A DNA stretch of 64,000 nucleotides, from contig OZ020519.1 of the NCBI GenBank assembly GCA_963971425.1, positions 3,426,028 to 3,490,027 of the forward strand. Direction: 5' to 3'. This DNA is from Bryoerythrophyllum caledonicum. Taxonomy: Eukaryota > Streptophyta > Bryopsida > Pottiales > Pottiaceae. Each line of letters starts with the position of its first letter. Within the stretch, counting starts at the first letter, position 1. Both the position numbers and the translations under genes were made by a program. This document shows, one piece after another, positions 3,010 through 63,760 of this stretch. Under the pieces are notes generated by a model. It made no database searches. It was not told where the DNA came from and saw only the letters and a list, made by a program, of their open reading frames with translations.

Positions 3010-7572
<4,563 letters not shown>

Positions 7573-7574
7573 TA

Positions 7575-20039: not shown

Positions 20040-20070
20040 AATAAACACGCAATTAAGCAATTATGCACTT
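20040..20070. repeat. Left TSD (AATA) and left terminal inverted repeat
   Basis: AATA at 20040-20043, then the TIR at 20044-20070. The TIR is followed by GGCC and, ten bases on, AAGTGCACTT, so the subterminal region can also fold on itself. Confidence 0.85.
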
Positions 20071-20612
20071 GGCCATTTAAAAGTGCACTTGGGTACAACG
20101 GCGGCCATTGCGAACAAAAGTGGCAAAATTGAAAAAAAAAAAAATCAAAGAAAAAAAATGTTTTCCAAAGGAAAAAAAATTGAGCTTCTGCAACAATATT
20201 ACGTACAATCATGGTTGTTCATATTGGAAGCGATTTTTTGGCATTTTCAACTAATTTGTGGTGGCCCCTCGTTAATACTAGATAAATGTGTATTTAATAT
20301 AGTTTCACAATATTCCAAAGATAGATTTGAAGAATTGTAGTATATAAACACGCGTAATTACAAAAAAACATACTTTTTGCAAGGGTTGGCAGTTGATTAA
20401 AAGATATTCTACATAGTACATAATGCATACAATGGTGAAAACTAAATATAGATGCTTCAACAATCGGACTTAGCACCAATAGTAAACATAGCTTTACTCT
20501 AAAGGATTAATGACATAACGTCTTACATCACCCTTAGAATATACTACTCTTACACATATACCATATATCAATTACCATACATAACTAGTATACTCTAAAA
20601 AAGGCACACTAT

Positions 20613-21383
20613 CTACTCCATAGAATTTAGGGCTGCTTGCAAACGGTCGTCATCGATAGCTTCGGTTTGCATTGCAATATATTGTAGGATGTGAGCCTTT
20701 GCCAATTGAAGAATGCGAATCCTGCTTTCAACCTGCACTCCAAATACATTGTGCTTTCTCCACCCGCTGGCTCCGGACATGGTTCTTTCAAGTGTGTCTA
20801 CCCATGAAAAAATGCATGCATCTTTCTCTACCCAACTATGACTCTCCCCAGATGGCTCCCAGAATGAATCCATGCAATTTGCATACCGTTGTGCAGAAGA
20901 TCCATGTCCATCAACAACCCCTCTTTGGATGATGGGCTAATACCAACAAACCTTAATCTTAAGTCTCCATCGGTTTTTTCCTTCCTCAATCACTTTCCCC
21001 ACATAGAATGGTACACCGCCTTCTATCTCTGCTCGATCAACACTCAAGGCTACAAACTGTCCACAACGGATATCAGATTGTGGATTAAATGGTGGAAATG
21101 GGTCGTGATTACCTTCATACATTGCTCCTTCTTCGGCGCGTTCCTCAACATAGTTGCGCTCTGTTTGTTGTGCCCTACGCACTGCTTGATTAGAGGGTCT
21201 TCCTCTACGAGGACCAAAGTATTCTCGAGCCTCGGCATTTGGAAGCATGGCCACTACCTGCTCTACGACATTTACCTCGCGATTTTCTTCACTTGCACCA
21301 TCCATTACATCCAAAGATGTGCTCCATGTAGGTCCGGTGTTGGAGAACTCTGAAGGCCCAAAACGATGAGGTACGATGCTCAT
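20613..21383 (-). pseudogene. C-terminal part of the transposase gene, different frame, one internal TAG
   Basis: The frame opens with ATG at 21383 (MSIVPHRFG) inside the end of the 838-residue ORF. It reads an acidic linker, then FVALSVD and VPFYVGKVIEEG, a segment that could be a small beta-barrel chromatin- or DNA-contact domain. A TAG at 20939-20937 follows VCWY, after which the same frame continues with FWEPSGESHSWVEKD to a stop at 20613. Continuity across the TAG suggests one domain broken by a point mutation. A one-base shift joins it to the upstream ORF. Confidence 0.6.
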
Positions 21384-23805
21384 TGCTACAATCTTTGTGT
21401 GAAAATTGAGCTAAATAGAGTTTCAATCTTTCAGCCTCTACTTTTGCCTCACGATTCTTGTCCTCATGCTGCAACCTTTGAATGCACCTTTGTTTATATG
21501 CAATGAAGTCATCCAACGCCTTCAACTCCCGTTCGTTCGCTGCAAATACTTCCGCAAACGATGGTCGTTCATCCCTATTTGGCAACGACCTCAAAGTTTT
21601 CGTCCCTGCCTCCGGTCCCCATAGATCCTTGCAATAATGCTTGTGTTGTACTCGAACCTCAAGAGTCTCTTCTCGATTGTCCATATAGAATCGCATGTGG
21701 TGCGGAAATGTTATGCCCACCAATAAATCCTGACCTGTCAATAAGTGAGGAGTTATGAACAATTTCCAATCCCATACATTCTCTAGCAGCCGGGCGCTAA
21801 CAAATGACTCCGTAGGAGATGTTCCTCGTTCTATAAGACTAATCATTTCCTTCAACGAGTCGACGTCCGACCTCTTCAACGTATTTGATATACAATTGAA
21901 GCGTTGATCAATATCTTCGTGGGTATGGCCCACTATAAGAAAAGATAGTTTCACCTCCTGAAAAAACCCCAATCCCACCAATGGAGCACATAGAGCAAAC
22001 ATATAAATGTTTTTGTTCTCACGCGTGCAGTTGTCGGCCTGAATTCGCAGTGTTGGTGGCAAAAAGCCCCTCCTCCGCAGCACCTCTCCAATCACGTATA
22101 ACAATGTACTCACGACTTGATTGCTATCATGTTTGTGGTGAGCCCCAAACCACACGTCGCAATATAAACCAATCCCATGTACAAGAGCACCACATAGATG
22201 GGTCTTAACAAACCGATGTTCAATGTTCTTCACAGTCTGACGCATCCTCGGTACCATGGTCGTGTTTTGGTCCATGCCATCCACTATGATGCACATGTAC
22301 AACTCAGGGCTAATATAACACGACCTCTTGAATATCCAATAATGCCTCCGTTCTTCCATCTGGTTGCGAAGATGCAACATAAACAACTCCTTTATCTTTA
22401 TCCTCGCATCCGCATTGGTGGTTCCCTCCATGGCACATTTATACTCCCAACAATGATAACACTTTGAGAATCTCAAGAACGGAGGTACCTGAACGTGGGG
22501 ATACTTGATGCGCCACATCCTCCGGAACGAACTCATAGAAATGGTTTCTCCATTACAAATTCTCTTGACCTCCTCGTTCACGTAATTGAATACATCAAAT
22601 TTGGTTGTATTCATAGGAAGGAGAATGAGAGGCACCACTTCGTTGTCACTCTTACGGCGAATACAACGATGAGGTTGAAGACAACCAACTTCATTGACAA
22701 ACGATTTAAAGCAAGCCTCTGCTGCAGACATTCTAGTGCTTTCTCTTATCGGATCTGAAAGGGTATTGCCGTGAATCGATGTCACTCTTTCATATATTAG
22801 ACAGTCCTTCTTCAATTGCTTAAAGCGCCTCTGTGAATATCCAACCCCAAGAGCGTAGCAAGCATTGCAAACTTGTTTCCTATCTAACTTTGTTACAAAC
22901 TTGTCTCGACGAGTTCCTTCCGTCCTTGTGTAAAAAGAAACCAGCATTTGTCTCATCCACGTACTTCGTACTGAAAATTCACTACCCCATGCATTATATC
23001 GCATGTCCAATAGATACATTGCTGGAACGTCCCTCAAACAATTGCGTTTGCATTGTCCTTGTGCCATTGCAATTTGTACGCTTCTAAGCGATACCTTAGA
23101 TGGTGCAGCTTCTGTCAATGATGGCTCCCTTGAATCTCTCCTTCTCCTATTTTGCATAGAATATGGACGACGTGCTGGTCTAACATAAGCAAATCCACCT
23201 ACATGGGGCAAATCTTGAATATTTAAGGGAGTAGATTGGGAAAACGGCGAATTTTCATCTATGGCGTTTGAAGCATGACTACTGCGTCGAGACCTTTGGG
23301 TGGATCTTGGTGTGTTGATGAACTCTAGAAAATCAAATTCTGAGGCCATCACTTTTGCAGGCGCTATCTGTGATCCAATGTCACCATGGACACCTGTGAT
23401 ATCAGGTTCTACAGTCACTACACGTAGCAAAGATCGATGCCAACGAATGATCAAGCCCACACACATGCCAAGGCGTTCTCCTACAATCTCTCCGGTCCAA
23501 TGCAATGCATCGTCTACCCTAGTGATACGCACGGCCACCTCAAATGGGAACAACTTCGACCCATTCAATTCCATGCCACTTTTGAATGCATGCTCCCTCG
23601 TTGCTAAGCCCACCACATCTCCTCTTTCTGAAAGCAATTCTACTGCCCTTTCCAATTCAGAAGTCATGATCCCAACAGATCTCTGTTGAATTAGCCTTGC
23701 ACGTGCTGCTCGTATTAATCGGGCCCCTACAGAGCTATTACAAGGCATATTGTCCCTTTCGATGTGTGGCCGTATCAAAGGAGTCTGAATCGTGCGGCTC
23801 TCCAT
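21289..23805 (-). CDS. DDE-like transposase of the 12.8-kb element (DUF7869-type, tentative)
   Basis: A protein of 838 residues from the ATG at 23805. The N-terminal third is basic and low in complexity. The middle has a Cys-rich segment (CNACYALGVGY, KCYHCWEYKC). The C-terminal half reads CIIVDGMDQ, LRIQADNCTRENKN and FLIVGHTHEDIDQ. These acidic motifs sit like an RNase H-fold DDE/DDD catalytic core, and the GHTHEDIDQ signature recalls DUF7869-type transposase-like proteins (from memory, not searched). It is likely to cut and rejoin the element ends. It overlaps a second open frame (21383-20613) that looks like the natural C-terminus, so the gene is either frameshifted near 21383 or has two overlapping ORFs. 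Confidence 0.75.
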   Translation of the reverse strand: MESRTIQTPLIRPHIERDNMPCNSSVGARLIRAARARLIQQRSVGIMTSELERAVELLSERGDVVGLATREHAFKSGMELNGSKLFPFEVAVRITRVDDALHWTGEIVGERLGMCVGLIIRWHRSLLRVVTVEPDITGVHGDIGSQIAPAKVMASEFDFLEFINTPRSTQRSRRSSHASNAIDENSPFSQSTPLNIQDLPHVGGFAYVRPARRPYSMQNRRRRDSREPSLTEAAPSKVSLRSVQIAMAQGQCKRNCLRDVPAMYLLDMRYNAWGSEFSVRSTWMRQMLVSFYTRTEGTRRDKFVTKLDRKQVCNACYALGVGYSQRRFKQLKKDCLIYERVTSIHGNTLSDPIRESTRMSAAEACFKSFVNEVGCLQPHRCIRRKSDNEVVPLILLPMNTTKFDVFNYVNEEVKRICNGETISMSSFRRMWRIKYPHVQVPPFLRFSKCYHCWEYKCAMEGTTNADARIKIKELFMLHLRNQMEERRHYWIFKRSCYISPELYMCIIVDGMDQNTTMVPRMRQTVKNIEHRFVKTHLCGALVHGIGLYCDVWFGAHHKHDSNQVVSTLLYVIGEVLRRRGFLPPTLRIQADNCTRENKNIYMFALCAPLVGLGFFQEVKLSFLIVGHTHEDIDQRFNCISNTLKRSDVDSLKEMISLIERGTSPTESFVSARLLENVWDWKLFITPHLLTGQDLLVGITFPHHMRFYMDNREETLEVRVQHKHYCKDLWGPEAGTKTLRSLPNRDERPSFAEVFAANERELKALDDFIAYKQRCIQRLQHEDKNREAKVEAERLKLYLAQFSHKDCSNEHRTSSFWAFRVLQHRTYMEHIFGCNGWCK

Positions 23806-24023
23806 TATCACTATTGAAAAAATAGGAACATTATGGCTGCAAATTAGTCAAAATACATGTACTAATTGTTAACCTTCAAAGCACCATTCATCTGATAAAA
23901 GGTATGTTTCTAAACACAAATTTACTGTTCAAAATATAATTATGATTTTGGACCTTTTGATAGAACAACTTTGAAATGAAAAAAATTAGAATTTATAGAA
24001 CATGAACTCCTTGCACAGAGTCT

Positions 24024-24975
24024 TTAACCCTGAAGGTACAATGACACTATTACACCAAAAACATTTCAAAATTGTTGGATTCTAGTGCAATGAACAAAAA
24101 AGGAAACGAAAACTTTTATTTCTAGTTTTGACCGTAGGATCTCAATTAAGATTTATTGAGTAATATGCAAAAAAAATTTCATAAACTTTGACCACACGGA
24201 TTGAAAGATTATAGTGTTTGAAGTGAAGCTTATGGTTCATTTTCTTCCTTGCGTGCAGTGGATCAGCAGACTTTGACTTCACTTGGTGTCTAATTTTTGC
24301 ACTACGCAAAGTTTAAATCCACAACCATCTTGTTAAGCATGATGTTGGTTCCTTGTACACCAATTTTTAGAGGTAGAGAACAAGTGTAGCATATTCAAAA
24401 CAACTGTGCAAGGAGTGGAAGTTCGGAATTTGTTAAATCACATTGTAATTTTTTGTGAACATAATATGTTTTAGATTGGTAATCCAAATGGTCAATAAGA
24501 AGGTTTACACCACATATTGTTGTGGAAAAAATAAAAAGTGAAAAATGAAAAGATGTCTAGGTTTTATTTGGAAAGCATGAAGTTTTTTTAGTACCTTGCC
24601 CAACAATGAGTGACAATGTGTGAAAATGTTTGACTTAGGTTGATATGTTCTTTATCACTAAAGACAATAACTTATTTTGACAACATCAAGGAAAATAATA
24701 TTACTTGCGAGTACTGAAAATCTCACATTCAACAAAGTGTTCTAGCAAAACTTTTTGGACATGCCCGACTTGCCCGCTCTCCCCATTTGAAATTCAAAAC
24801 CCTAAAACTTTTTGATCAAATGTCCAATTTAGGTAAAAATTGTTTTCCCACTAAAGTCTTGGTAATGTCTTTTTATAGTAAAATTTTCAAAGAGGAATGT
24901 TAGAAATTGACACCATAGGAATTTGACCGAACTTTCAAGAAGCCCATTTTTTTCACTTGATCCTTTAGGGGTTAA
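24024..24975. mobile_element. TTAA-type (piggyBac-like) MITE, nested in the large transposon
   Basis: The left end is TTAA-CCCTGAAGGTAC (24024-24027 is TTAA) and the right end is TCCTTTAGGGG-TTAA (24972-24975). About 950 bp. The interior matches other family members in order: the GACCGTAGGATCTCAA block, the CACGGATTGAAAGATTATA block, then TTTTTAGAGGTAGA and GTGCAAGGAGTGGA. No coding capacity. Confidence 0.8.
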
Positions 24976-26039
24976 TTATGCTACACCTCTTTTGCATCCC
25001 TAAACATTGGTATAAAATAGAACTAATATCATTTATGACATGATGATAATGAGTCTATATCATGTCTGATGCAATCTTTTGAATCTAAGTGAATTGAAAC
25101 GAAGGAAATCCACTGAACTTAGGGAAGGAAATCCACTGAACTTAGGGAAGAAAATGAACCATGTTGTCTACTTGCTATTACTGACACCATTGGATCTTAT
25201 TACAATCGCTAATAAAAAAAAAGGTTTGTACATCCACATAAACTTGTATAAAAATAAATGTTTACCTCAAAATATGTTGCACGTGTTAGTGGTACACGCA
25301 CTGGTGCTTGATGGCGTTCAACATTAAATCACCATTTCGTCATTGTTGAACATGTTTTTCAAGCCTTCCCACTTAACCTGCAATACATGCATTTAATTTA
25401 TATGGTGAACTCTGTGATAAAAACTCCTAAGTATCTTCGTATTACATATAGCTCAAAATATTAATATAATATGTAAAAAGTTTAAACATAAGGAGAACAA
25501 AGCAAAATGTCAAAAGTTCTAAAGTCAAACTTTGACTAATAAACTTGAGGCACAAGGTTCCAACATGAATATAAGGTTTCTATGCAAATCTAGAGGTCTC
25601 TTCTCTTCCCAATTTCTAAGGTGAGCTCTCTTGCAATTGAAACCTAAAGGCCATGTGCATTTTTCTTCATTCGCTAATTTCTATCAACTTTGTGTGTACT
25701 GTGTAGATTGAAGGATATTTGGACATCAAGGAGATTTTGGTGAATTTGGTAAGTTTCTGGCTTTGTTTCAATTTTGAAATGAGGGAACTCCAGGGTTAGA
25801 TTCATGAGGATTGAGGTTAGTTAGAGTTACGATAGTGAGCAGAACCAATATAGATGCACACAAATGAGGACATGAACTTGAGTATGATTAAAACTGCAAA
25901 ATCAACAAAGGTTTCATATTTACACAAGATAGCAGTCAACAAGAAGAGAGTGCAATTTTTGAAATACTGAAATACTAACTCAAAAACCATACAAAACTCA
26001 AGTCAAGTGAGTAGCTCGTAGAATGGCACTAAATCCTGA
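24976..26039. other. AT-rich interior of the large transposon, nothing recognised
   Basis: No supported gene. A perfect direct repeat GGAAATCCACTGAACTTAGG occurs twice at about 25105 and 25128. Confidence 0.4.
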
Positions 26040-26067
26040 GTATAGCACATCAGCACACTACCTGAAC

Positions 26068-26160
26068 CCTAGCCGCCGCAACAAACCCTAGCTGCCACAA
26101 AAAAATCCTAGCCGCGGCATCTAAACCCTAGCCGCCGCAATCTAACCCTAGCCGCCGTTG
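26068..26160. repeat. Short tandem repeat CCCTAGCCGCCGCAA (about five units)
   Basis: Degenerate units of about 20-24 bp built on AACCCTAGCCGCCGC. The AACCCTA core is the plant telo-box motif often found in 5' UTRs of translation genes; whether it acts here is unknown. Confidence 0.6.
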
Positions 26161-26370
26161 CCATGGAGTTCGCGTAGACTGGAGGTGTGCGCACGCACAC
26201 CCCCAACTGCTGCTGCTCCTCCATCGACCATATCCAAAACCCATACCCTGTGAAAACCCATACCCTGTGAAGGTGCTTCTTGAACGTTGAACGGCCTCGC
26301 GCAAGTAGCTGCTGGTTGCGCAACGTCTACAAAGAACCTTGCGCGTGCAACTTCGAACTTTGCGCAGCCT

Positions 26371-26570
26371 NNNNNNNNNNNNNNNNNNNNNNNNNNNNNN
26401 NNNNNNNNNNNNNNNNNNNNNNNNNNNNNNNNNNNNNNNNNNNNNNNNNNNNNNNNNNNNNNNNNNNNNNNNNNNNNNNNNNNNNNNNNNNNNNNNNNNN
26501 NNNNNNNNNNNNNNNNNNNNNNNNNNNNNNNNNNNNNNNNNNNNNNNNNNNNNNNNNNNNNNNNNNNNNN
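26371..26570. other. Assembly gap (200 N)
   Basis: Exactly 200 N inside the large transposon. The flanks are GC-rich (GCGCAGCCT to the left and GGGCAGCGTGGCC to the right). The real length is unknown. Confidence 0.99.
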
Positions 26571-26926
26571 GGGCAGCGTGGCCTCGCGCAGGCCCGCCTC
26601 TGGGTCGCAGGCCATGGCCTGCCTCAGGGGCGCACGCCCGGATTTATTTTTTGGAAAAATTTCCCCCCCTCCCGTGCTCTCACCTCCATCTCTCCTCTCC
26701 CCTACGGCGCCGTATCCTCCTGTCTACCAAATCCTAGCCGCACACGTTTTCTCATCCTCACACCTCCCAAAATTCCCTCCCCTCTCTCACACCTCCCATT
26801 CATTCCTCTCCCCACCCTCCGCTCTTACAAGCCCCTCTCAAACAATCCCACAAGTCTCTCACAACCTCTCCCTCCTCCAAACCCTCTCTCTCACACCCAC
26901 AGCCACCCTCACAAACTACTACCAGG

Positions 26927-26948
26927 GGTGTGCGCGCGCACACCCCTC
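26927..26948. repeat. GC-rich palindrome GGGGTGTGCGCGCGCACACC
   Basis: A near-perfect palindrome. The same sequence occurs in the second transposon copy at 63945-63962, and a variant (GGTGTGCGCACGCACACC) at 26185-26202, so it is an element feature, possibly a hairpin or a protein-binding site. Confidence 0.7.
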
Positions 26949-27164
26949 GTAGGACTACCCAAAGGTGCAACACATTGATATCCGTATTGATACCCTAAAT
27001 TTGAAAACCCTAATTCCAAACCCTAAGTAGATACCTCGGTTGATAACCGGTTGTGGGGCCCAATAATTCATACCCTGGTGGAGATACCCTCGATATTGAT
27101 ACCCCAAGTACCCTTGACCAAAAATGATGTAGAGAATATCTCAACAAAAAATCTTTAGAAATGC

Positions 27165-28260
27165 TTGTTTTAGTGCAATTTGCAAGGAAAAACAATTGAA
27201 GCTTTTTTGGTAGTTTTAACCGTAGGATCTCAAAAATGACTTATTAAGTAATATACTCGCAAAATTTCATAAAGTTTTACCGCACGGATTGAAAGATTAT
27301 AATGTTTGAAGTAGAGAAAAGACTCATTTTCATCCCAGCGTTTTATGGATCAGCAGTCTTTGACCTCAATTGGTGTCCAATTTTGGCATTTCACAGGGTC
27401 TCAACAAATTAACATAATGTTCAGCATGATGTTAGTTTGCTATATTCCAATTTTTAGAGGTAGAAAAGGAGTGTAGCATATTCAAAAAAATTGTTCAATG
27501 AGTGGAGGTTCAATAATTCTCAATTCACGTTATATTTTTTTGTGAACTTGATATTGTTTTAAATGGGAATCCAAATGGTCAATAAGAAGGTTTACATCAC
27601 ATAATGCCGTAGAAAAAATCAAAAGTGAATCATACAAAGATCTCAATGATTTATGTGGAAAGGTAGAAGTTTTTTTGGTACCATGGCCGAAAATGTGTGA
27701 CAATGTGTGAAAATAATTGACTTGGATTAATATGCTATTTCACCAATTTAGAACTAACAACATGATTAACACAATGGTATTGGATTTAGATCTTGTGTAG
27801 TGCAACACTTTTTAGAGGTAGACAATGAGTGTAGCATATTAAAACAAAATGTGCAATGAGTGGAGGTTCCAAAATTCTCAATTCACGTTATATTTTTTTT
27901 GTGAAATTGATATTGTTTTAAATGAGAATCCAAATGGTCAATAAGAAGTTTTACATCGCATAATGCTGTAGGCAAAATCAAAACTGAATCGTACTAAGTT
28001 CTCAAAGTTTTATGTGGAAAGGTAGAAGTTTTTTTGGTACCATGGCCGAAAATGTGTGACAATGTGTGAAAATAATTGGCTTGGATTAATATGCTATTTC
28101 ACCAAAGAACTAACAACATGCTTAACACGATGGTATTGGATTTAGATCTTGTGTAGTTCAAAAGTTTTTAGAGGTAGACAAGGGGTGTTGCATGTTCAAA
28201 AATATTGTGCAATGAGTGGTGGTTCAAAAATTCTTATTCCATACTAATAGTGACTATCGT
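27165..28260. repeat. Tandem units of about 357 bp upstream of ORF A
   Basis: The segment containing GTGCAATGAGTGGAGGTT recurs at about 27496, 27854 and 28210, giving a period of 356-358 bp. The first unit is preceded by the same CGCACGGATTGAAAGATTATA block found in the TTAA MITEs. The second transposon copy has the same array (62662, 63021 and 63381). It lies directly upstream of ORF A and may hold its promoter (inference). Confidence 0.75.
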
Positions 28261-28296
28261 TTTGTAATGATATACAGGTATTTTGAGTGTTGCGTT

Positions 28297-29691
28297 ATGG
28301 TACCACCAAATATTGATAGAATCTGGGAGAGCCACGGCTGGTGGATCGCAGAAGTGGATGAGTCGAGCGCCTTCTTATGGGTGACGGATTATCCGTTTGA
28401 GCTGGGGAAGCGTACATCGGCGTTGGGAAAGAGTTTTGGCAAAATCCAAGCAATCACTCTTCGACGTGATGATATGGTATACGTTACTTGTGTAGTGGGT
28501 CCAGGTCAATCGGAGGTGAAGACTTCCCTTTCAAAGAAATTACTTTTTGCACCTGTCCCTTTGAATCTTCTTCAAAATCCAGGTCAAGTGAAATTCCTCA
28601 AATCATTGCAGACGTTTTGGTTAAACATCTCTCTTGCGGTACGTACTGCTAGACACAACAACGTCTTAGCCTGTTTAGCGTTATCATCGAAGATGGTGCT
28701 CAAGGCTAAGAAGATTATGGAGGAACATATTAGATATGAAGCATTTCGGGAGAGGGACCCATCACGTACGACAACTCAAGCCCCACCAACGGAACTAGAA
28801 GAAACAGAAGTTTATCGAATTCTTGCTGAGCCGTTGCAACAGGATTCGCGACCACTAGAGGGGGGGAGAGGAAGTGGAGGCCAACATCCAACCACAACTT
28901 CTGAGGTACAAACATTACCTAATCCTCCATTAACGAGTAGACGTCCTACGAAGAGGCCACGGCGTTTTGAGAGTGATGTAGTTTCTGGTTCAAGTGAAGG
29001 CCCATCAAGTTTGGATCCAAGCAGGAGGAGGTTGATTGGGAGAAGTCGAAGATCGAGTGGCAGGATTCCTAGGTCGGGGCTCAGAACGTCTGATGGTCAT
29101 CGTAGGGCCCCTACATCTATACCGGGAGATTTAGCTGATTTGTCAGCCATGGCGCCGGAGGAAGAAGATTTTCACAACCTTCCAGACAGTATACCAGAGG
29201 ATTTTGAAGACAATGCGGAGATACCACAGGATCTTCCAACTCCAATGAATTTAAAAGCACCAGTGCCTACAACAGAGGAGATTGCGAAAGGATCAGTGTG
29301 GGGGAATTTTATGTTTAAGGCACACATAGACCGCATTGTCTCTGTGGAGAATCCGGAAACCAACCACCGGGTTTTATCACAGAAGAGGATAATAGAAGTA
29401 TTCAACCGCTTACGAGACCCAGAATCCGCGACTCGGGTGAGTAGATTGATACTTCGACCGATCAGATACATCGTGCATACTACTACCGATGATGGTGTCG
29501 TTGAGAAGGAAGAGCTGCCATTTCCGTTGGTAGGTACCGCACGAGAGTTTGAGCGCATGTTCATTGCACACGGGAGTGCTTCTGCACAGGGTGTTATGGG
29601 ATCCCGGTATTCTTGGCTTCAAGATCATATCATTTGGGAACCGGTGGATGGGCAACACATAGTAGCAGCTTGTAAGTTTGCACAACAATAG
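28297..29691 (+). CDS. ORF A of the large transposon, uncharacterised
   Basis: A protein of 464 residues from the ATG at 28297 (MVPPNIDRIWESHGWW). This ATG is conserved in the second copy (MAPPKIDRVW). An in-frame ATG at 28216 lies in the tandem-repeat array and is less likely; an acceptor-like TATACAG ends at 28277. The N-terminal 130 residues form a compact folded-looking domain (WWIAEVDESSAFLWV, VKFLKSLQTFW). The middle is a disordered Ser/Arg/Pro-rich linker with SRRRLIGRSRRSSGR, possibly a nuclear or nucleic-acid-binding patch. The C-terminal 130 residues look folded again (NHRVLSQKRIIEVFNRLRD). I do not recognise the family. The stop TAG (29689-29691) is followed in the same frame, 15 bases on, by the ATG of ORF B. 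Confidence 0.8.
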   Translation: MVPPNIDRIWESHGWWIAEVDESSAFLWVTDYPFELGKRTSALGKSFGKIQAITLRRDDMVYVTCVVGPGQSEVKTSLSKKLLFAPVPLNLLQNPGQVKFLKSLQTFWLNISLAVRTARHNNVLACLALSSKMVLKAKKIMEEHIRYEAFRERDPSRTTTQAPPTELEETEVYRILAEPLQQDSRPLEGGRGSGGQHPTTTSEVQTLPNPPLTSRRPTKRPRRFESDVVSGSSEGPSSLDPSRRRLIGRSRRSSGRIPRSGLRTSDGHRRAPTSIPGDLADLSAMAPEEEDFHNLPDSIPEDFEDNAEIPQDLPTPMNLKAPVPTTEEIAKGSVWGNFMFKAHIDRIVSVENPETNHRVLSQKRIIEVFNRLRDPESATRVSRLILRPIRYIVHTTTDDGVVEKEELPFPLVGTAREFERMFIAHGSASAQGVMGSRYSWLQDHIIWEPVDGQHIVAACKFAQQ

Positions 29692-29706
29692 TGGAGATAT
29701 GGTACT

Positions 29707-32262
29707 ATGCCTTTAAACGAGTATCTGGACACGTTTGAGCAGCGGGAGTCCTCTTTTGTAGTGTATGATGATCGTCGTTTTTACATTGAGAAGTCAATGC
29801 GGATCAACGTGGTGGAGTTCCAGAGACATTCATATTCTACCATGGAGGAGGATTTGAGGAAGATCCGTCAGATTTGGGATCTATACGGGAGGCCTGATAA
29901 CACACTACGTGCAGACAATGCACGCAGGGCTGTTGCTTTGGTGAGTGCGGCAAGTGCAGTGCATAAGTTGTCCAAGGGGGATGGAGTTGTCACGGTGAAG
30001 AGGTTGGCCAAAAACATGGAGGATCTGACCAATCATGCATGGAATTCGAGCAATGACTGCTTCGAAGCAATCATTCAAGTATGCAAGGACTACGAAGACG
30101 GCATTCTCTTTTACAGCAAGGAGGAAGAGGACAAGTGGAAGGACATGGCAAGGAAGAAAGAGTTGGATCCAAATGTGGACGTACAACCAACAAGAAAGGA
30201 GATGACCCAGAATTGGTTGAAGCCGTTAGGTAGGGTTCCGATTCCATATTATCTTCAGTTGGCAAAGTCTGCTGCAGCGAAGCCGGTGACGGAGGATGGA
30301 GTAAGACCTCGTCAAGCATACTACTTCGACGGTGTAAAAGACAAGAATCCACATCCTCGTTCCATTGCCGGTGTTTGTGACCGATATCAGAGACGAGAAG
30401 CTGTGATCAATTCCATCCGTTGGTTGATGGTGGAGAACAAGGAAAGTACACCTGATTCCATGGAGGAGTTCTTCCGTATCCGTGTAGGGAAGTATTTTCC
30501 GAGGAGTAACGCACAACTTGATACCTTTGGAAAGCTTTTGAATGCTACCACGAAAAAAGCTTGGACTGCTTCTGTGCGGGGGAAGGTGTCTAAACTGGAA
30601 GATATAGGCTACCTCATCCCCCCTTCCATCAGGTTTCATTATGATGACATTGCAGCAGGGGGGCGGGGATATATTGGACTGTCCGTGGATGTCGGAGGAC
30701 TGGCTACTACTAATTGGGAATGGCAAATGGAAGTCAAGAGGCCAGGCCAGAGCGACATAGAGAATCTTCTTCCGATTCGGTGTAGAAGAGGGTTATTCCG
30801 CACCGACTACATAGAGTTGGGGAAACCATGTTTGTGGGTGATTGATTGTCGACGTGGCGGTAGGAGGCATGGAGATGGTCATTGGGGAGATGCCCAGTTA
30901 TCCGCAGTTTTTGCACAGCTGGCATTATGGATGGCAAATATTGAACGATGGAACGTCATCTTCTTGTTACCAGCGGCCGTGTATGCCAACGAAGACTTTT
31001 TCACGAAGGTGAAGCTTCCAGAGGGATGTACTATGCGACGTGGATGTTGGGCATTTGATCCGAATTCGGTTAATCCCTATGCTCTCGATTTTACAGAGAA
31101 TGGGCGTCTGGAGCAAGTAGTACAACCCATTGGCGATGTTGTGATTTGTATGCAGCACCCTGGGAATACATCTCCTGGCCCGAACTATGTTTCTGGAGAC
31201 GTTCCACTTCCTCTTGTTTTCTTGGATCACTGGAGTGAGGCACGCCAACCCTCTGAAGTTGATTCACTTGAGAGATCTCCATCAGAGCTGGCAAGACTAG
31301 TGGGCTCATACTTGCCCCGTGGTTGGGGTTTAGTGGCGTGTAACATATCTACGGCCATTCCCACGATCCTTGAAGGAGATTTCCAGGGATCTGAGGTTTT
31401 CATCATTGACAATTGTACAGACAGAGTTTCATTTCTGTACAATGAGTTGTCCGACAATTTCCAAGGACAACTGTTGGTCAGGACTGGTGGAACAAGTGTT
31501 GGTTGCAACATCGTACCTGAGACCGAAGAGGCGATTGGTAGAGTGAGGAATGAAGACGACAATGAGGATGGAGGTGGTTTACATGAGAGATTGCTACGTT
31601 CAGGTACCACTAAAGATTTCTCATCTCGTAGTGGTTCAGACGCCGATGAAGATGGAGTGAATCAGTCTCCTCTAGGAGAGAGGATTCCATCAACGCAGCG
31701 GGCGGTGGGAGATACTTCAGGGCAGACGTCTGCAACACCTACAGAGAGGATGCAAAATACCGGTGTAGTGGATGTTGGTTTGGCGGCAGGGGTAGGAGGG
31801 GGGCGTACATTTGATGGTCCTAGGTTGGAGATGGAGGAAGAAGAATTGGATTCATTGGAATTTTTTTCGGTGCAGAGGAGGATTCCACAGCCTTCGATGC
31901 CTTCTCAATCAGAGCCTGTATCGGAGACACAAGAGACGTTCGGAGGTACTCAGAGTGATACCGGACCAGGTTTGCCTTCCGTTCCAAGATCTAGCGTATC
32001 CGAGGACATCATTGCATTTCAGGGGGCCTTCTCGTTAGAGCGAGAGATGTCCTTCAATCCAGAGGATGAATTTTTCTACAATGATGATAGGGTAAGGCAT
32101 ACGCGGGAGGGTGTTCCTGGCAATTACCGATATGTTGAGTGTGCGTCCATTGGCATCGAAGGTGTGGGAGATCGTCCAGTGCAGGATCATGAATTGTCCG
32201 CTATGGTAGGTAGCGCCATTGGACACGTGGAGGGAGTCGTTCCGCCAGAAGATGAGCTCTGA
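29707..32262 (+). CDS. ORF B of the large transposon, uncharacterised (possible Rossmann/methyltransferase-like core)
   Basis: A protein of 851 residues. The N-terminal 200 residues are helical and charged. Residues about 320-600 alternate hydrophobic strands and loops: WEWQMEVKRP, CLWVIDCRRGG, WNVIFLLPAAVYANEDFF, GDVVICMQHPG, SPSELARLVGSYLPRGWGLVAC and SEVFIIDNC. This order loosely recalls a Rossmann-fold methyltransferase of the type with the catalytic motif before the cofactor motif, but no DPPY or FxGxG motif is seen, so it may be degenerate or something else. The last 230 residues are acidic, Ser/Gly-rich and probably disordered. It starts 15 bases after ORF A in the same frame. The second copy differs at about 17 of 851 residues and keeps the full length, which fits recent activity or constraint. 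Confidence 0.82.
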   Translation: MPLNEYLDTFEQRESSFVVYDDRRFYIEKSMRINVVEFQRHSYSTMEEDLRKIRQIWDLYGRPDNTLRADNARRAVALVSAASAVHKLSKGDGVVTVKRLAKNMEDLTNHAWNSSNDCFEAIIQVCKDYEDGILFYSKEEEDKWKDMARKKELDPNVDVQPTRKEMTQNWLKPLGRVPIPYYLQLAKSAAAKPVTEDGVRPRQAYYFDGVKDKNPHPRSIAGVCDRYQRREAVINSIRWLMVENKESTPDSMEEFFRIRVGKYFPRSNAQLDTFGKLLNATTKKAWTASVRGKVSKLEDIGYLIPPSIRFHYDDIAAGGRGYIGLSVDVGGLATTNWEWQMEVKRPGQSDIENLLPIRCRRGLFRTDYIELGKPCLWVIDCRRGGRRHGDGHWGDAQLSAVFAQLALWMANIERWNVIFLLPAAVYANEDFFTKVKLPEGCTMRRGCWAFDPNSVNPYALDFTENGRLEQVVQPIGDVVICMQHPGNTSPGPNYVSGDVPLPLVFLDHWSEARQPSEVDSLERSPSELARLVGSYLPRGWGLVACNISTAIPTILEGDFQGSEVFIIDNCTDRVSFLYNELSDNFQGQLLVRTGGTSVGCNIVPETEEAIGRVRNEDDNEDGGGLHERLLRSGTTKDFSSRSGSDADEDGVNQSPLGERIPSTQRAVGDTSGQTSATPTERMQNTGVVDVGLAAGVGGGRTFDGPRLEMEEEELDSLEFFSVQRRIPQPSMPSQSEPVSETQETFGGTQSDTGPGLPSVPRSSVSEDIIAFQGAFSLEREMSFNPEDEFFYNDDRVRHTREGVPGNYRYVECASIGIEGVGDRPVQDHELSAMVGSAIGHVEGVVPPEDEL

Positions 32263-32837
32263 GCCCTGGAGCTATATACTATATTAGAGCAAGCATGCAC
32301 GCAATTTAGGTGACAAGTAGGTTAGTATAATGCAGTTTGAGATGTGTCTATCGTTCGGTGGGTGGTATATATTTATATATTGGGTGGTTCATATGATATA
32401 TTTGATTTTAGAATTCCTCGGCAATAGTGTGGAATTGCTTGATTATGTATGTTTTTGCATTATAAAATACAGTGAGGTACTTTACACTGTCTTAGGAAGT
32501 TGCATATATATTTTTGTATCTCTTACACATTGTATTTGTAGTGCACTACTCTAAAATCCTATAATAACTCATAACAAATTTATAATCTCTTTGGGCACAT
32601 GATTATAATTTTGTAGCAGGATTTGTAAACTAGATTAGAATTCATATATTTTCTAAAAAAAGGTAGCAAATGTAAAAAATATATTACTGATATGAACACG
32701 AAGATGCCAAGGTATGACACGACAAACACCAAAAAAAATTGACAAAAAACATACTAAACTTTTGCCAAATTTTGATTTTAAAAAAAGTTATGAGCAAATA
32801 ACTTGCGGCTTTCTACCAGCAACGAGTGCACTTGGGT
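32263..32837. other. 3' end of the large transposon, non-coding
   Basis: AT-rich sequence between the ORF B stop and the right TIR, closely matching 58051-58620 in the second copy. A small open frame (32330-32554) recurs in the other copy but probably reflects only recent duplication. It is likely the 3' UTR and terminator of the ORF A-ORF B transcript. Confidence 0.6.
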
Positions 32838-32868
32838 AAGTGCATAATTGCTTAATTGCGTGTTAATA
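32838..32868. repeat. Right terminal inverted repeat and right TSD (AATA)
   Basis: The reverse complement of the left TIR ends at 32864 with GCGTGTT, followed by AATA at 32865-32868. All 27 bases match the left end. Confidence 0.85.
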
Positions 32869-33809: not shown

Positions 33810-34719
33810 TTAACCCCTAAAGGACCATGGCCGATTTTGCTCAAAAACTAGTCCAAAACTGTCATTGTCAAAAAGAGGCACTAAAATCACATTTCTAACG
33901 TGAATTTTGGATTTTCAACCGTAATAGCTCTGAAAAAACTTCAATATAAACATGCCTTACTCTTTTGGTTGCAATCCACCGCACGGATTGATAGATTATA
34001 GTGTTTAAAGTGAAAACAATGGTTCATTTTCTTCCCATCGTTGAATGGATCCGTAGGCTTTGACTTCACTTTCTATAAACTTTTTACACAACACAAGTTC
34101 CAAATCTTTTACCATTGTCTTAAGCATGATGTTATTTCCTTACACACCAATTTTTAGAGGTAGAAAAGGGGTGTAGCATATTCAAAAAGTTTGTGCAAGG
34201 AGTGGAGGTTTAAAAAAGGCCAATTCACATTTTATCATTTTGTGAACTAAATATCTTTTAGAATGCTAATCCGAACGGTGAATAAGAAGGTTTATATTAC
34301 ATCTTGTAGTAGAAAAAACAAAAAGTGAAAAATATAAAGATCTATAAGTTTTATGAGGAAAAGAAGAAGTTTTTTTGTACCTTGCCCGAAAATGTGTGAA
34401 TTTTTTGACTTGGGTTAAAATGCGATATTGCACTAAAGACAAGAATTTTTTTGGAAATCTTTATAGAAGGTAATATTCTTCATAAGTATGAAAAATCTTG
34501 ATGTCAATAGATACTTCTAGCAAAAGTTTTTAGATTCCTTGACTACCCATTTTTCACTTTGCCTTCAGGGAGAGTTTTCAATTTTGGGCAGGTTCCTAAA
34601 ATTTGAAAAAAAATTAATTAATTTGAAAAATTTTAACTAAATTGTCCTTGGTAAGAGCTATTTGGAGGTATTTAAAAAAAAAATTGGATTTGTGGTTCGA
34701 AAGTTACTTTAGGGGTTAA
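33810..34719. mobile_element. TTAA-type (piggyBac-like) MITE a
   Basis: TTAA at 33810-33813 followed by CCCCTAAAGGACC; right end ACTTTAGGGG then TTAA at 34716-34719. 910 bp including both TTAA sites. Interior blocks are shared with the other members. The TTAA target and CCC-starting termini are the piggyBac hallmark. Confidence 0.85.
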
Positions 34720-55770: not shown

Positions 55771-55930
55771 GCTCATGCACAGTGGCTTTAGACATTGATT
55801 TTGCTATTGTCAATCTGATTGTTGGAAAGGGCAGTTTATTATGGTACGTGGGTCTGTAAAGCACTATCATAGAGCCTTGGTGACCAACTTTTTGACATTT
55901 TTAATTACAGTGATAGGGAAACCTGGTCCA

Positions 55931-56531: not shown

Positions 56532-56554
56532 CACAGGTGGTACATGAGTGGTTA

Positions 56555-57471: not shown

Positions 57472-57628
57472 TTGTTTGGAGGGTAATATTTTAAGTTAAT
57501 TGTGCCATAAATAGATCAAACTTGGCTCGGTTATAGGAGGTTTTGGGAATTTTTATAAGTGCATGTGTGGTGTTGGAGGGACAATACGTGCTCATTTTCA
57601 AGCCAAGCTATGTTCATCCATAGGAAGC

Positions 57629-57850: not shown

Positions 57851-58023
57851 TGCTTTCAAAATGACACTGTAAACACATCCTTGATAAAAAAATTTAAAAA
57901 ACTGACTTTTATCATATTCTTCTTCTACTTCCTAAGCATTGTTAGTTTTCTTCCAGGTTTCTTACTTCACTAACTGCCAGAACTTCTTAAAGGCCCGGAA
58001 ATAGGCTGAAATACATTATCAGC

Positions 58024-58064
58024 AACACGCAATTAAGCAATTATGCACTTGGCCAAGTGCACTG
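58024..58064. repeat. Terminal inverted repeat of transposon copy 2, with internal palindrome
   Basis: The 27-bp TIR runs 58024-58050. Its end overlaps a perfect palindrome GCACTTGGCCAAGTGC (58045-58060). Copy 1 has GCACTTACCCAAGTGC at the matching right end, so the palindrome is slightly decayed there. Confidence 0.85.
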
Positions 58065-58620: not shown

Positions 58621-61176
58621 TCAGAGCTCATCTTCTGGCGGAACGACTCCCTCCACGTGTCCAATGGCGCTACCTACCATAGCGGACAGTTCATGATCCT
58701 GCACTGGACGATCTCCCACACCTTCGATGCCAATGGACGCACACTCAACATATCGGTAATTGCCAAGAACACCCTCCCGCGTATGCCTTACCCTATCATC
58801 ATTGTAGAAAAAGCCATCCTCTTGATTGAAGGACATCTCTCGCTCTAACGAGAAGGCCCCCTGAAATGCAATGATGTCCTCGGATACGCTAGATCTTGGA
58901 ACGGAAGGCAAACCTGGTCCGGTATCACTCTGAGTACCTCCGAACGTCTCTTGTGTCTCCGATACAGGCTCTGATTGAGAAGGCATCGAAGGCTGTGGAA
59001 TCCTCCTCTGCACCGAAAAAAATTCCAATGAATCCAATTCTTCTTCCTCCATCTCCAACCTAGGACCATCAAATGTACGCCCCCCTCCTACCCCTGCCGC
59101 CAAACCAACATCCACTACACCGGTATTTTGCATCCTCTCTGTAGGTGTTGCAGACGTCTGCCCTGAAGTATCTCCCACCGCCCGCTGCGTTGATGGAATC
59201 CTCTCTCCTAGAGGAGACTGATTCACTCCATCTTCATCGGCGTCTGAACCACTACGAGATGAGAAATCTTTAGTGGTACCTGAACGTAGCAATCTCTCAT
59301 GTAAACCACCTCCATCCTCATTGTCGTCTTCATTCCTCACTCTACCAATCGCCTCTTCGGTCTCAGGTACGATGTTGCAACCAACACTTGTTCCACCAGT
59401 CCTGACCAACAGTTGTCCTTGGAAATTGTCGGACAACTCATTGTACAGAAATGAAACTCTGTCTGTACAATTGTCAATGATGAAAACCTCAGATCCCTGG
59501 AAATCTCCTTCAAGGATCGTGGGAATGGCCGTAGATATGTTACACGCCACTAAACCCCAACCACGGGGCAAGTATGAGCCCACTAGTCTTGCCAGCTCTG
59601 ATGGAGATCTCTCAAGTGAATCAACTTCAGAGGGTTGGCGTGCCTCACTCCAGTGATCCAAGAAAACAAGAGGAAGTGGAACGTCTCCAGAAACATAGTT
59701 CGGGCCAGGAGATGTATTCCCAGGGTGCTGCATACAAATCACAACATCGCCAATGGGTTGTACTACTTGCTCCAGACGCCCATTCTCTGTAAAATCGAGA
59801 GCATAGGGATTAACCGAATTCGGATCAAATGCCCAACATCCACGTCGCATAGTACATCCCTCTGGAAGCTTCACCTTCGTGAAAAAGTCTTCGTTGGCAT
59901 ACACGGCCGCTGGTAACAAGAAGATGACGTTCCATCGTTCAATATTTGCCATCCATAATGCCAGCTGTGCAAAAACTGCGGATAACTGGGCATCTCCCCA
60001 ATGACCATCTCCATGCCTCCTACCGCCACGTCGACAATCAATCACCCACAAACATGGTTTCCCCAACTCTATGTAGTCGGTGCGGAATAACCCTCTTCTA
60101 CACCGAATCGGAAGAAGATTCTCTATGTCGCTCTGGCTTGGCCTCTTGACTTCCATTTGCCATTCCCAATTAGTAGTAGCCAGTCCTCCGACATCCACGG
60201 ACAGTCCAATATATCCCCGCCCCCCTGCTGCAATGTCACTATAATGAAACCTGATGGAAGGGGGGATGAGGTAGCCTATATCTTCCAGTTTAGACACCTT
60301 CCCCCGCACAGGAGCAGTCCAAGCTTTTTTTGTGGTAGCATTCAAAAGCTTTCCAAAGGTATCAAGTTGTGCGTTACTCCTCGGAAAATACTTCCCTACA
60401 CGGATACGGAAGAACTCCTCCATGGAATCAGGTGTACTTTCCTTGTTCTCCACCATCAACCAACGGATGGAATTGATCATAGCTTCTCGTCTCTGATATT
60501 GGTCACAAACACCGGCAATCGTACGAGGATGTGGATTCTTGTCTTTTACACCGTCGAAATAGTATGCTTGATGAGGTCTAACTCCATCCTCCTCCACCGG
60601 CTTCGCTGCAGCAGACTTTGCCAACCGAAGATAATATGGAATCGGAACCCTACCTAACGGCTTCAACCAATTCTGGGTCATCTCTTTTCTTGTTGGTCGA
60701 ACGTCCACATTTGGATCCAACTCTTTCTTCCTTGCCATGTCCTTCCACTTGTCCTCTTCCTCCTTGCTGTAAAAGAGAATGTCGTCTTCATAGTCCTTGC
60801 ATACTTGAATGATTGCTTCGAAGCAGTCATTGCTCGAATTCCATGCATGATTGGTCAGATCCTCCATGTTTTTGGCCAACCTCTTCACCGTGACAACTCC
60901 ATCCCCCTTGGACAACTTATGCACTGCACTTGCGGCACTCACCAAAGCAACAGCCCTGCGTGCATTGTCCGCACGTAGTGTGCTATCAGGCCTCCTGTAT
61001 AGATCCCAAATCTGACGGATCTTCCTCAAATCCTCCTCCATGGTAGAATATGAATGTCTCTGGAACTCCGCCACATTGATCCGCATTGACTTCTCAATGT
61101 AAAAACGACGATCATCATACACTACAAAAGAGGACTCCCGCTGCTCAAACGTGTCCAGATACTCGTTTAAAGGCAT
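58621..61176 (-). CDS. ORF B of the large transposon, copy 2
   Basis: 851 residues, the same length as copy 1 ORF B (29707-32262) with about 17 amino-acid differences and no frameshift or stop. All segments named there are kept (VIDCRRGG, NVIFLLPAA, VVICMQHPG, SELARLVGSYLPRGW). It begins 15 bases after the TAG of ORF A in the same frame, as in copy 1. Function unknown; see the copy 1 entry. Confidence 0.82.
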   Translation of the reverse strand: MPLNEYLDTFEQRESSFVVYDDRRFYIEKSMRINVAEFQRHSYSTMEEDLRKIRQIWDLYRRPDSTLRADNARRAVALVSAASAVHKLSKGDGVVTVKRLAKNMEDLTNHAWNSSNDCFEAIIQVCKDYEDDILFYSKEEEDKWKDMARKKELDPNVDVRPTRKEMTQNWLKPLGRVPIPYYLRLAKSAAAKPVEEDGVRPHQAYYFDGVKDKNPHPRTIAGVCDQYQRREAMINSIRWLMVENKESTPDSMEEFFRIRVGKYFPRSNAQLDTFGKLLNATTKKAWTAPVRGKVSKLEDIGYLIPPSIRFHYSDIAAGGRGYIGLSVDVGGLATTNWEWQMEVKRPSQSDIENLLPIRCRRGLFRTDYIELGKPCLWVIDCRRGGRRHGDGHWGDAQLSAVFAQLALWMANIERWNVIFLLPAAVYANEDFFTKVKLPEGCTMRRGCWAFDPNSVNPYALDFTENGRLEQVVQPIGDVVICMQHPGNTSPGPNYVSGDVPLPLVFLDHWSEARQPSEVDSLERSPSELARLVGSYLPRGWGLVACNISTAIPTILEGDFQGSEVFIIDNCTDRVSFLYNELSDNFQGQLLVRTGGTSVGCNIVPETEEAIGRVRNEDDNEDGGGLHERLLRSGTTKDFSSRSGSDADEDGVNQSPLGERIPSTQRAVGDTSGQTSATPTERMQNTGVVDVGLAAGVGGGRTFDGPRLEMEEEELDSLEFFSVQRRIPQPSMPSQSEPVSETQETFGGTQSDTGPGLPSVPRSSVSEDIIAFQGAFSLEREMSFNQEDGFFYNDDRVRHTREGVLGNYRYVECASIGIEGVGDRPVQDHELSAMVGSAIGHVEGVVPPEDEL

Positions 61177-61191
61177 AGTACCATCTCTCCA

Positions 61192-62586
61192 CTACTGCTG
61201 TGCAAACTTACAAGCTGCTACTATGTGTTGCCCATCCACCGGTTCCCAAATGATATGATCTTGAAGCCAAGAATATTGAGATCCCATAGCACCCTGTGCA
61301 GAAGCACTCCCGTGTGCAATGAACATGCGCTCAAACTCTCGTGCTGTACCTACCAACGGAAATGGCAGCTCTTCCTTCTCAACGACACCATCATCGGTGG
61401 TAATATGCACGATGTATCTGATCGGTCGAAGTATCAATCTACTCACCCGAGTCGCGGATTCTGGGTCTCGTAAGCGGTTGAATACTTCTATTATCCTCTT
61501 CTGTGATAAAACCCGGTGGTTGGTTTCCGGATTCTCCACAGAGACAATGCGGTCTATGTGTGCCTTAAACATAAAATTCCCCCACACTGATCCTTTCGCA
61601 ATCTCCTCTGTTGTAGGCACTGGTGCTTTTAAATTCATTGGAGTTGGAAGATCCTGTGGTATCTCCGCATTGTCTTCAAAATCCTCTGGTATACTGTCTG
61701 GAAGGTTGTGAAAATCTTCTTCCTCTGGCGCCATGGCTGACAAATCAGCTAAATCTCCCGGTGTAGATGTAGGGGCCCTACGATGACCATCAGACGTCCT
61801 GAGCCCCGACCTAGGAATCCTGCCACTCGATCTTCGACTTCTCCCAATCAACCTCCTCCTGCTTGGATCCAAACTTGATGGGCCTTCACTTGAACCAGAA
61901 GCTACATCACTATCAACACGTCGTGGCCTTTTCGGAAGACGTCTACTCGTTAATGGAGGATTCGGTACTATCTGTACCTCAGAAGTTGTGGTGGGATGTT
62001 GGCCTCCACTTCCTCTCCCCCCCTCCAATGGTCGCGAATCCAGTTGCAACGGCTCAGCAAGAACTCAATAAACTTCTGTTTCTTCTGGTTCCGCTGGTGG
62101 GGCTTGAGTTGTCGCACGTGATGGGTCCCTCTCCCGAAATGCTTCATATCTTATATGTTCCCCCATAATCTTTTTAGCCTTGAGCACCATCTCTGGTGAT
62201 AACGCTAAACAGGATAAGACGTTGTTGTGTCTAGCAGTACGTACCGCAAGAGAGATGTTTAACCAAAACGTCTGCAATGATTTGAGGAATTTCACTTGAC
62301 CTGGATTTTGAAGAAGATTCAAAGGGACAGGTGCAAGAAGTAATTTCTTTGAAAAGGAAGTCTTCACCTCCGATTGACCTGGACCCACTAGGCAAGTAAC
62401 GTATACCATACCATCAAGTCGAAGAGTGATAGCCTGGATTTTGCCAAAACTCTTCCCCAACGTTGATGTACGCTTCTCCAGCTCAAAGGGATAATCCGTC
62501 ACCCACAAAAAGGCGCTCGACTCATCCACTTCCGCGATCCACCAGCCGTGGCTCTCCCAGACTCTGTCAATTTTTGGTGGTGCCAT
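61192..62586 (-). pseudogene. ORF A of the large transposon, copy 2, one nonsense codon
   Basis: Starts MAPPKIDRVW at 62586 and keeps the full 1395-base frame of copy 1 without indels, but a TGA at 62067-62065 replaces the CGA of copy 1, stopping it after 173 residues. The change is C to T at a CpG, as expected from deamination of methylated cytosine. Downstream the frame is intact to its own TAG at 61194-61192. The only obvious lesion is this codon, so inactivation is recent. Confidence 0.85.
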
Positions 62587-62599
62587 AACGCAACAGTCA

Positions 62600-63760
62600 A
62601 GAAACCTGTATATCATTATAAAAAAATAGTCACTAGTAGTATGGAATATGAATTTTTGAACCTCCACTCATTGCACAATTTTTTTGAACGTGCTACACCC
62701 GTTGTCTACCTCTAAAAACTTTTGAACTACACAAGATCTAAATCCAATACCATCGTGTTAAGCATGTTGTTTGTTCTTTGGTGAAATAGCATATTCATCC
62801 AAATCAATAATTTTCACACATTGTCACACATTTTCGGCCAAAGTACCAAAAACACTTCTACCTTTCTACATAAATCTTCGAGATCTTCGTATGATTCACT
62901 TTTGATTTTTCCTACGGCATTACGTCATGTAAACCTTCTTATTGACCATTTAGATTCTCATTTCAAACAAAATGAAGTTTCCAAAAAAAAATATATAACG
63001 TGAATTGAGAATTTTTGAACCTCCACTCATTGTACAATTTTTTTGAATATGCTACACTCCTTTTCTACCTCTAAAAACTTTTGCACTACACAAGATCTAA
63101 ATCCAATAGCATCGCGTGAAGCATGTTGTTAGTTCATTGGTGAAATAGCATATCAATCCAAGTCAAATATTTTCACACATTGTCACACATTTTCGGCCAA
63201 TGTACCAAAATAACCTCTACCTTTCCACATAAAACTTTGAGATCTTTATATGATACACTTTTTATTTTTTCCAAAGCATTATGTGATGTAAAACTTCTTA
63301 TTGACCATTTGGATTCCCATTTGAAACACTATCGAGTTCCCCAAAAATATAACCTGAATTGAGAATTTTTGAACCTCCACTCATTGCACAATTTTTTTGA
63401 ATATGCTACACTTCTTGTCTACCTCTAAAAATTGGTGAATAGCAAACTAACATCATGTTTAACATTATGGTAATTATTTGAGACCCTTTAAAATGCAAAT
63501 ATTGGACACCAATTCACGTCAAAGTCTGCTGATCCAGAAAACGCAGGGATGAAAATGAGCTAGTTCTCAACTTCAAACATTATAATCTTTCAATCCGTGC
63601 GGTCAAACTTTATGAAATTTTTTGAGTATATTACTTAACAAGTCTTTATTGAGATCCTACGGTTAAAACTACAAAAAAAACTTCATATTTTTGTCCAAGC
63701 TAATTGCACTAAAACAAGCATTTATAACGAGTTTTGGTTGAGATATTCTCTACACCATTT
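62600..63760. repeat. Tandem units of about 360 bp upstream of ORF A, copy 2
   Basis: CCTCCACTCATTGCACAATT recurs at about 62662, 63021 and 63381, the inverse of the array at 27165-28260. The outer part ends in the AATCCGTGCGGTCAAACTTT and GAGATCCTACGGTTAAAACT blocks shared with the TTAA MITEs. Confidence 0.72.

Follow-up and report, generated by a model that had tools for sequence, protein, structure and literature searches.

A 12.8-kb moss transposon family with a DUF7869 transposase and a divergent second gene, probably of Sola type

Large plant transposons that pair a transposase with an accessory protein include the CACTA/EnSpm elements, with two products, and the VANDAL Mutator-like elements (MULEs), with an anti-silencing protein. 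Closer to the element described here is the Sola superfamily, which the available excerpts of a plant-transposon review characterize by a DDD transposase, 4-bp target duplications, a size mostly of 2-9 kb with some elements above 15 kb, and an occurrence in the moss Physcomitrella (PMC10741241). In Ectocarpus, the 21.5-kb Sola1-1_Ec32 has, besides its transposase, a second gene on the other strand; its product of 1104 amino acids (aa) combines ParB-like and N4/N6 DNA methyltransferase domains, and an anti-silencing role has been proposed for it through binding or modification of the element (PMC12477816, in excerpt). The Sola2-Fanzor elements of slime moulds, as excerpted, combine 4-bp AT-rich duplications with a Sola2 transposase (888 aa in one case) and Fanzor1 (PMC3627910). 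Here we describe a 12,821-bp element at positions 20044-32864 of a 64,000-nucleotide stretch of the genome of the moss Bryoerythrophyllum caledonicum (assembly GCA_963971425.1, contig OZ020519.1, 3,426,028 to 3,490,027, forward strand; the whole stretch is called the window). It carries a transposase gene with the Pfam domain DUF7869 and, divergently, a second gene that we call ORF2 (open reading frame 2), and is probably a Sola-type DNA transposon that moves by cut and paste, most plausibly Sola1-like.

Set beside these excerpted descriptions, the element agrees with the Sola superfamily in its terminal inverted repeats (TIRs), 4-bp duplication, a transposase that may be of DDD type, the possibility of sizes above 15 kb and its occurrence in a moss (PMC10741241, PMC3627910), whereas AACAY ends and the name DUF7869 are not stated in those excerpts. 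Because it was set against Sola by published description and not by sequence, we infer its membership from shared anatomy. That anatomy agrees closely with excerpted Sola1-1_Ec32, a giant element whose transposase and large second gene lie on opposite strands, but neither a ParB-like nor a methyltransferase domain was detected in the moss ORF2. With the Sola2-Fanzor elements, again as excerpted, it shares the 4-bp duplication and the combination of a transposase with a second protein, which there is Fanzor1, whereas ORF2 matches no Pfam family.

A sequence-only reading of the window had proposed a 12.8-kb TIR transposon with 27-bp perfect ends, AATA on both sides and a 4-bp target duplication, and these proposals held throughout. 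On re-reading, the inverted ends AACACGCAATTAAGCAATTATGCACTT at 20044-20070 (plus strand) and 32838-32864 (minus strand) have 0 mismatches and are each adjoined by AATA, and a third perfect copy lies at 58024-58050 (plus strand), compared with a chance expectation in the window of 0.00. Across the host assembly (437 Mb, 894 contigs) the 27-bp end has 1021 forward and 1048 reverse matches with at most 3 mismatches, against 0 + 0 for its reversed control; the element family is abundant, with about 2000 end copies in the genome. When 100 of these 2069 matches were listed, neighbours less than 26 kb apart stood in convergent order (plus then minus) 27 times, as against 2, 1 and 1 times in the other orders, so that the ends do co-occur at similar spacing elsewhere. 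Perfect repeats, genome-wide counts and convergent pairing together rule out a chance origin of the ends.

Target-site duplications were scored in 27 pairs, made up of 26 convergent pairs from the 100 listed matches (one further listed pair, 19.1 kb apart on contig C1, being left out) and the window element itself. The duplication is exact at 4 bp in 20/27 pairs, compared with 1.0 four-bp match expected by chance when end pairing is shuffled; at other lengths, exact matches occur in 3/27 pairs at 2 bp, in 0/27 at 3 bp and in 0/27 at each of 5-12 bp. Of the remaining seven, five come within one mismatch of a 4-bp duplication and the other two show no relation (spacings 9.9 and 21.6 kb). Three pairs (p13, exact; p14 and p15, one mismatch each) have common flanks and are therefore copies of one site. 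A short motif, GCACTTGG, stands near both ends in 7/7 full elements, with one extra internal copy in one of them, and is a candidate transposase binding site. In window coordinates the element is made up as follows:

20040..20043, no strand: left copy of the target-site duplication, AATA, read directly
20044..20070, plus strand: terminal inverted repeat at the end on the transposase side, with GCACTTGG motifs starting at 20065 and at 20085
20613..20936, minus strand: C-terminal piece of the transposase, in the same frame as the middle piece, beyond an in-frame stop
20937..21410, minus strand: middle piece of the transposase, in another frame than the main piece (frame break in the window copy)
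21289..23847, minus strand: main piece of the transposase, with DUF7869 (Pfam PF25273, E=2.6e-49; aa 533-716 of an 840-aa frame)
within 21289..23847, minus strand: motifs VDGMDQN, RIQADN and GHTHEDIDQ, from the sequence
23848..28215, no strand: region between the divergent genes, with repeats of about 300-360 bp and an assembly gap of 200 N; presumed promoter region
28216..29691, plus strand: first part of the second gene (ORF A), ending at an in-frame stop and containing WEPVDGQH
29692..32262, plus strand: remainder of the second gene (ORF B), in the same frame as ORF A; 1348 codons jointly when intact
32838..32864, minus strand: terminal inverted repeat, second-gene-side end; one GCACTTGG motif starts at 32828
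32865..32868, no strand: right copy of the target-site duplication, AATA, read directly

The minus-strand gene had been read as DDE-like, and its motifs agree with a DDE/D-like enzyme. When the transposase was searched against Pfam at E<=1, DUF7869 was the sole match, so that the search gave no domain of hAT, MULE, DDE_Tnp or integrase type. The motifs DGMDQN, RIQADN and VGHTHEDIDQ, together with an FSKCxxC stretch, are invariant in 6/6 aligned sequences from 5 families, and the invariant aspartates of DGMDQN, RIQADN and GHTHEDID form a pattern that resembles, and may correspond to, the DDE/D triad of the RNase H fold. Genome-wide, the best 150 of 3613 DUF7869 candidates were scored and all 150 lie above the family cut-off; in 14 control genomes no member of the family was found. 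Since 65/150 of the scored copies are free of stops over 1060 aa or more, an intact transposase is about 1066-1087 aa long, typically near 1075 aa. The window copy is broken by a frame break and an in-frame stop.

On the plus strand, two genes, ORF A and ORF B, had been proposed, which with the transposase would make three. The element instead has two genes, because ORF A and ORF B form a single 1348-aa frame in intact copies: such a stop-free frame is present in 17/53 scored copies (the best 53 of 1657 candidates in a genome-wide ORF B search), and one intact ORF2 frame (L074) was translated in full.

The earlier reading would have fallen if the transposase and ORF A/B halves were always separate, and copies elsewhere in the genome show that they are not. 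Fourteen elements or copies were read: seven of 11.3-14.4 kb, six of 2.2-7.1 kb and the second copy in the window. All of the seven longer elements hold both genes, with the transposase towards one end and ORF2 towards the other (7/7), and most of them have stops or frame breaks in one or both genes. Among the six shorter elements, one retains an interrupted transposase plus roughly half of ORF B, four have fragments only and one gave no match. Two separate genome searches placed a scored DUF7869 match no more than 16 kb from at least 19/53 ORF2 copies, where 0.58 would be expected by chance, and the genes are divergent in 19/19 of these co-located pairs, five of which have full-length stop-free frames in both genes. 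The remaining 34/53 ORF2 copies have no scored DUF7869 match within 16 kb; the 19 pairs are a lower bound, since the best candidates of each search alone were scored. A second copy with the same end and genes had also been placed at 58024-64000, of which the end and the second gene stand and the transposase does not: no transposase match and no second end were found in the 16.35 kb read from 58024, which has a 200-N gap inside. The features of this partial copy are:

58024..58050, plus strand: end of the partial copy (second-gene side), a perfect AACACGCAATTAAGCAATTATGCACTT
58621..62667, minus strand: second gene of the partial copy, with the ORF B part 98% and the ORF A part 92% identical, and in-frame stops

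Selection was estimated by a simple counting method on local alignments, as the ratio of nonsynonymous (dN) to synonymous (dS) substitution rates. When the window copy is compared with p10, the most divergent of the full-length copies, dN/dS comes to 0.14 in the main piece of the transposase (818 codons, dS 0.90), 0.30 in the ORF A part (458 codons, dS 1.26) and 0.35 in the ORF B part (841 codons, dS 0.99). Both genes thus appear to bear signs of purifying selection, and both proteins appear to have been kept, with ORF2 changing faster.

The same design extends to more distant relatives in the host genome. Among eight DUF7869 loci are transposases that share 38%, 41%, 42% and 63% identity with that of the window in the best long alignments (families 38, 41, 42 and 63 in what follows), and the transposase-side ends of these families begin AACACCGG, AACACCTG, AACATCG and AACACCAA, respectively, so that AACAY tips (AACAC or AACAT) recur across four other transposase families. 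Exact 4-bp duplications flank 6/7 pairs of family 38, 2/4 of family 41 (leaving out a fifth pair, on C772) and 1/1 of family 42, whose ends lie 31.6 kb apart with the duplication TTTT, giving 9/12 in total, with family-63 ends left out; two of the three inexact pairs have one mismatch and one has two, and 3-bp matches are seen as well in 2/12 pairs, the TTTT pair among them. Homologues of ORF2 were sought in one element each of families 38 and 41. In the second-gene half of the family-41 element, tblastn found the ORF A part at E=5e-11 and the ORF B part at 24% identity over 555 aa (E=1e-32); in that of the family-38 element it found the ORF A part at E=1.6e-10 and the ORF B part at E=3e-18. 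In BLASTP against the intact 1348-aa ORF2, the family-41 and family-38 homologues gave E=1e-38 and E=2e-32. What is new here is that AACAY ends are shared by families whose transposases are 38-63% identical to this one, and that the second gene is kept in both families examined.

These families also differ in where their ends lie in the assembly. Family-38 matches are on contigs C1-C15 (17/17), and 9/10 family-63 ends are on contigs C29 or higher, as are all 25 family-41 ends (out of 32 matches, the other 7 being of family-38 type on C1-C15). Those of contigs C29-C781 whose length is known measure 20-37 kb; these small contigs may come from a part of a chromosome that was not placed, or from a related organism.

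PIF-Harbinger elements make duplications of 3 bp, and we rejected this superfamily as 0/27 pairs are exact at that length and the transposase has no PIF-Harbinger domain. The CACTA superfamily requires CACTA/G ends and a 3-bp duplication, whereas the ends here begin AACAC and no pair is exact at 3 bp; the hAT (8 bp), Mutator (7-12 bp) and Tc1-mariner (TA) superfamilies are likewise at odds with the duplication counts given above for 2 bp and 5-12 bp, and none of their domains is present. The lengths listed in the excerpted review for Mutator, CACTA, hAT and Tc1/mariner disagree with the element as well (PMC10741241). Duplication length and end sequences also set the element apart from CACTA/EnSpm elements and VANDAL MULEs. 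Ginger, as described in the excerpted review, would accommodate a 4-bp duplication within its 4-6 bp, but its ends are TG...CA, and the transposase here has DUF7869 and no integrase (PMC10741241). Large CACTA elements and multi-gene MULEs are known in plants, according to the same excerpts (PMC10741241), yet with a 4-bp duplication, ends that are neither CACTA/G nor TG...CA, and DUF7869 as the only domain recognized, membership in one of these superfamilies is hardly credible. That the combination might belong to no described superfamily, as the sequence-only reading supposed, is nonetheless doubtful, since the 4-bp duplication and size fit Sola, to which the excerpts also give a DDD transposase (PMC10741241) and, in a giant Sola1 element, an opposite-strand second gene (PMC12477816). 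A distinct, undescribed superfamily, related to but separate from Sola and defined by the DUF7869 transposase, AACAY ends, 4-bp duplications and an obligatory ORF2, would account for AACAY tips in four other families down to 38% identity, for the 4-bp duplications in the three families tested and for the two-gene layout in the two examined; DUF7869 is, moreover, a domain of unknown function in Pfam, and the term was not found in our literature search. We consider such a superfamily unlikely, because a 4-bp duplication with a DDD transposase and a possible giant size is what the excerpts give for Sola, in moss (Physcomitrella) as well (PMC10741241), and because a Sola1 element whose second gene runs on the opposite strand has already been published (PMC12477816, in excerpt).

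Several points nevertheless weigh against a Sola1-like element that keeps two proteins. The assignment to Sola itself draws on the 4-bp duplication, size, acidic motifs and published anatomy. Among closer copies (at least 450 codons), dN/dS rises to 0.29-0.77 for the main piece of the transposase, 0.28-0.40 for the ORF A part and 0.37-0.67 for the ORF B part, values that are expected if many copies decay. Searches of ORF2 for domains in Pfam, PHROGs and NCBIfam gave no match; profile comparison (hhalign) with 7 bacterial ParB domains gave a probability of 0.4% (E 0.15); Pfam ParB_N had 0 matches in the host genome at E up to 1, while it was found in 11/14 control genomes; and the methyltransferase motif [DNS]PP[YFWHI] is present in none of 4/4 ORF2 sequences, two of which are partial. 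The sole ParB-like sign in ORF2 is an (I/V)DGQH motif, with DGQH invariant in 4/4 sequences, which resembles the ParB/sulfiredoxin motif. It had raised, from motifs, the reading of ORF2 as a working ParB-like and DNA methyltransferase protein that labels the DNA of its own element, much as in Ectocarpus Sola1-1, where the 1104-aa protein encoded opposite the transposase combines the two domains (PMC12477816, in excerpt); the ParB profile comparison and the ParB_N search do not support that reading, the methylation motif is missing and 8 above-cut-off N6_N4_Mtase matches in the genome coincide, on comparison by eye, with none of the 53 listed ORF2 or 150 listed DUF7869 places, all of which leaves it doubtful. 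One might also regard the transposase half as the transposon and ORF2 as a captured host gene or chance passenger, given that ORF2 changes at roughly double the rate of the transposase (dN/dS 0.30-0.35 against 0.14) and is degraded in many copies, 36/53 scored rows having no stop-free 1348-aa frame. This is very unlikely, however: two families with transposases only about 40% identical to this one have a homologue at the same place and in the same orientation, and the comparison with the diverged subfamily gives a dN/dS far under 1, neither of which would be expected of a recent passenger.

Taking the element as a Sola-type transposon, the DUF7869 protein would be a DDE/D nuclease that binds the element ends, possibly at the GCACTTGG sites, excises the element and inserts it at a 4-bp staggered cut in the target. 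With less confidence, ORF2 could be a partner protein acting on the element's own DNA, either helping transposition or protecting against silencing by binding or modifying the element, along the lines proposed for Ectocarpus Sola1. The window copy, because both of its genes are broken, would be mobile, if at all, only through the proteins of intact copies. We further put forward, tentatively, that DUF7869, AACAY ends and 4-bp duplications mark a lineage that needs two proteins, with ORF2 as a new class of partner protein, perhaps derived from a ParB-methyltransferase and having since lost the methylation motif, that might bind element DNA and so direct transposition or prevent silencing. A Pfam domain of unknown function is now tied to complete elements with defined ends and duplications, so that a DUF7869 protein met in another setting may be taken for a likely transposase. 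Beside the transposase, a large second protein has been retained in families whose transposases are only about 40% identical to this one, and with both genes open in 5/19 co-located pairs, the role of accessory proteins in giant transposons becomes testable.

Searches beyond the host genome brought few leads. Viral contigs, searched from a few short peptide patterns, gave no relatives of the transposase or of ORF B; phages gave none of the transposase or of a 192-aa stretch of ORF2; plasmids gave no credible relatives of ORF2 (three weak matches, E 3-8); and solved structures gave no significant match (lowest E 0.33). In the literature, none of six motif words was found, and no title or abstract opening among the matches listed for Sola in mosses or liverworts, ParB in transposons and Sola accessory genes describes the element.

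The 8 N6_N4_Mtase frames mentioned above are 153 aa each, alike in score, and match the end of the profile (G000 C9:14278932, C3:25317, C3:3869951, C7:25541665, C11:23603760, C2:24590736, C4:18222308 and C4:12907793); they belong to a multicopy sequence that may be transposon-borne.

The window contains other repetitive and coding features. A repeat of about 300 bp occurs inside and outside the element in both orientations (24237-24536, 27324-27623, 34024-34323, 35220-35519, 36534-36757, 44917-45140 and 63343-63566), and six copies of a 35-bp near-palindrome, CTACACTAAA...TTTAGTGTAG, lie at 55925-57852 beside tandem arrays of 15-17-bp repeats. Retrotransposon-like reading frames are found on the minus strand at 3010-7698 and 46589-48346: in the former, GDIETNPGP, a 2A-like motif, adjoins a long TGTTGT repeat read as poly-Asn, and in the latter a degenerate GDIEINSGP is present. 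An open reading frame at 53785-54486 has a Tc5-type transposase DNA-binding domain (E=5.6e-9) and is probably the remnant of a DNA transposon. The window also holds a match to an RRM protein, and at 13694-14718 tandem units of about 213 bp enclose an open reading frame that matches leucine-rich repeats (LRR_14, E=5.2e-20).

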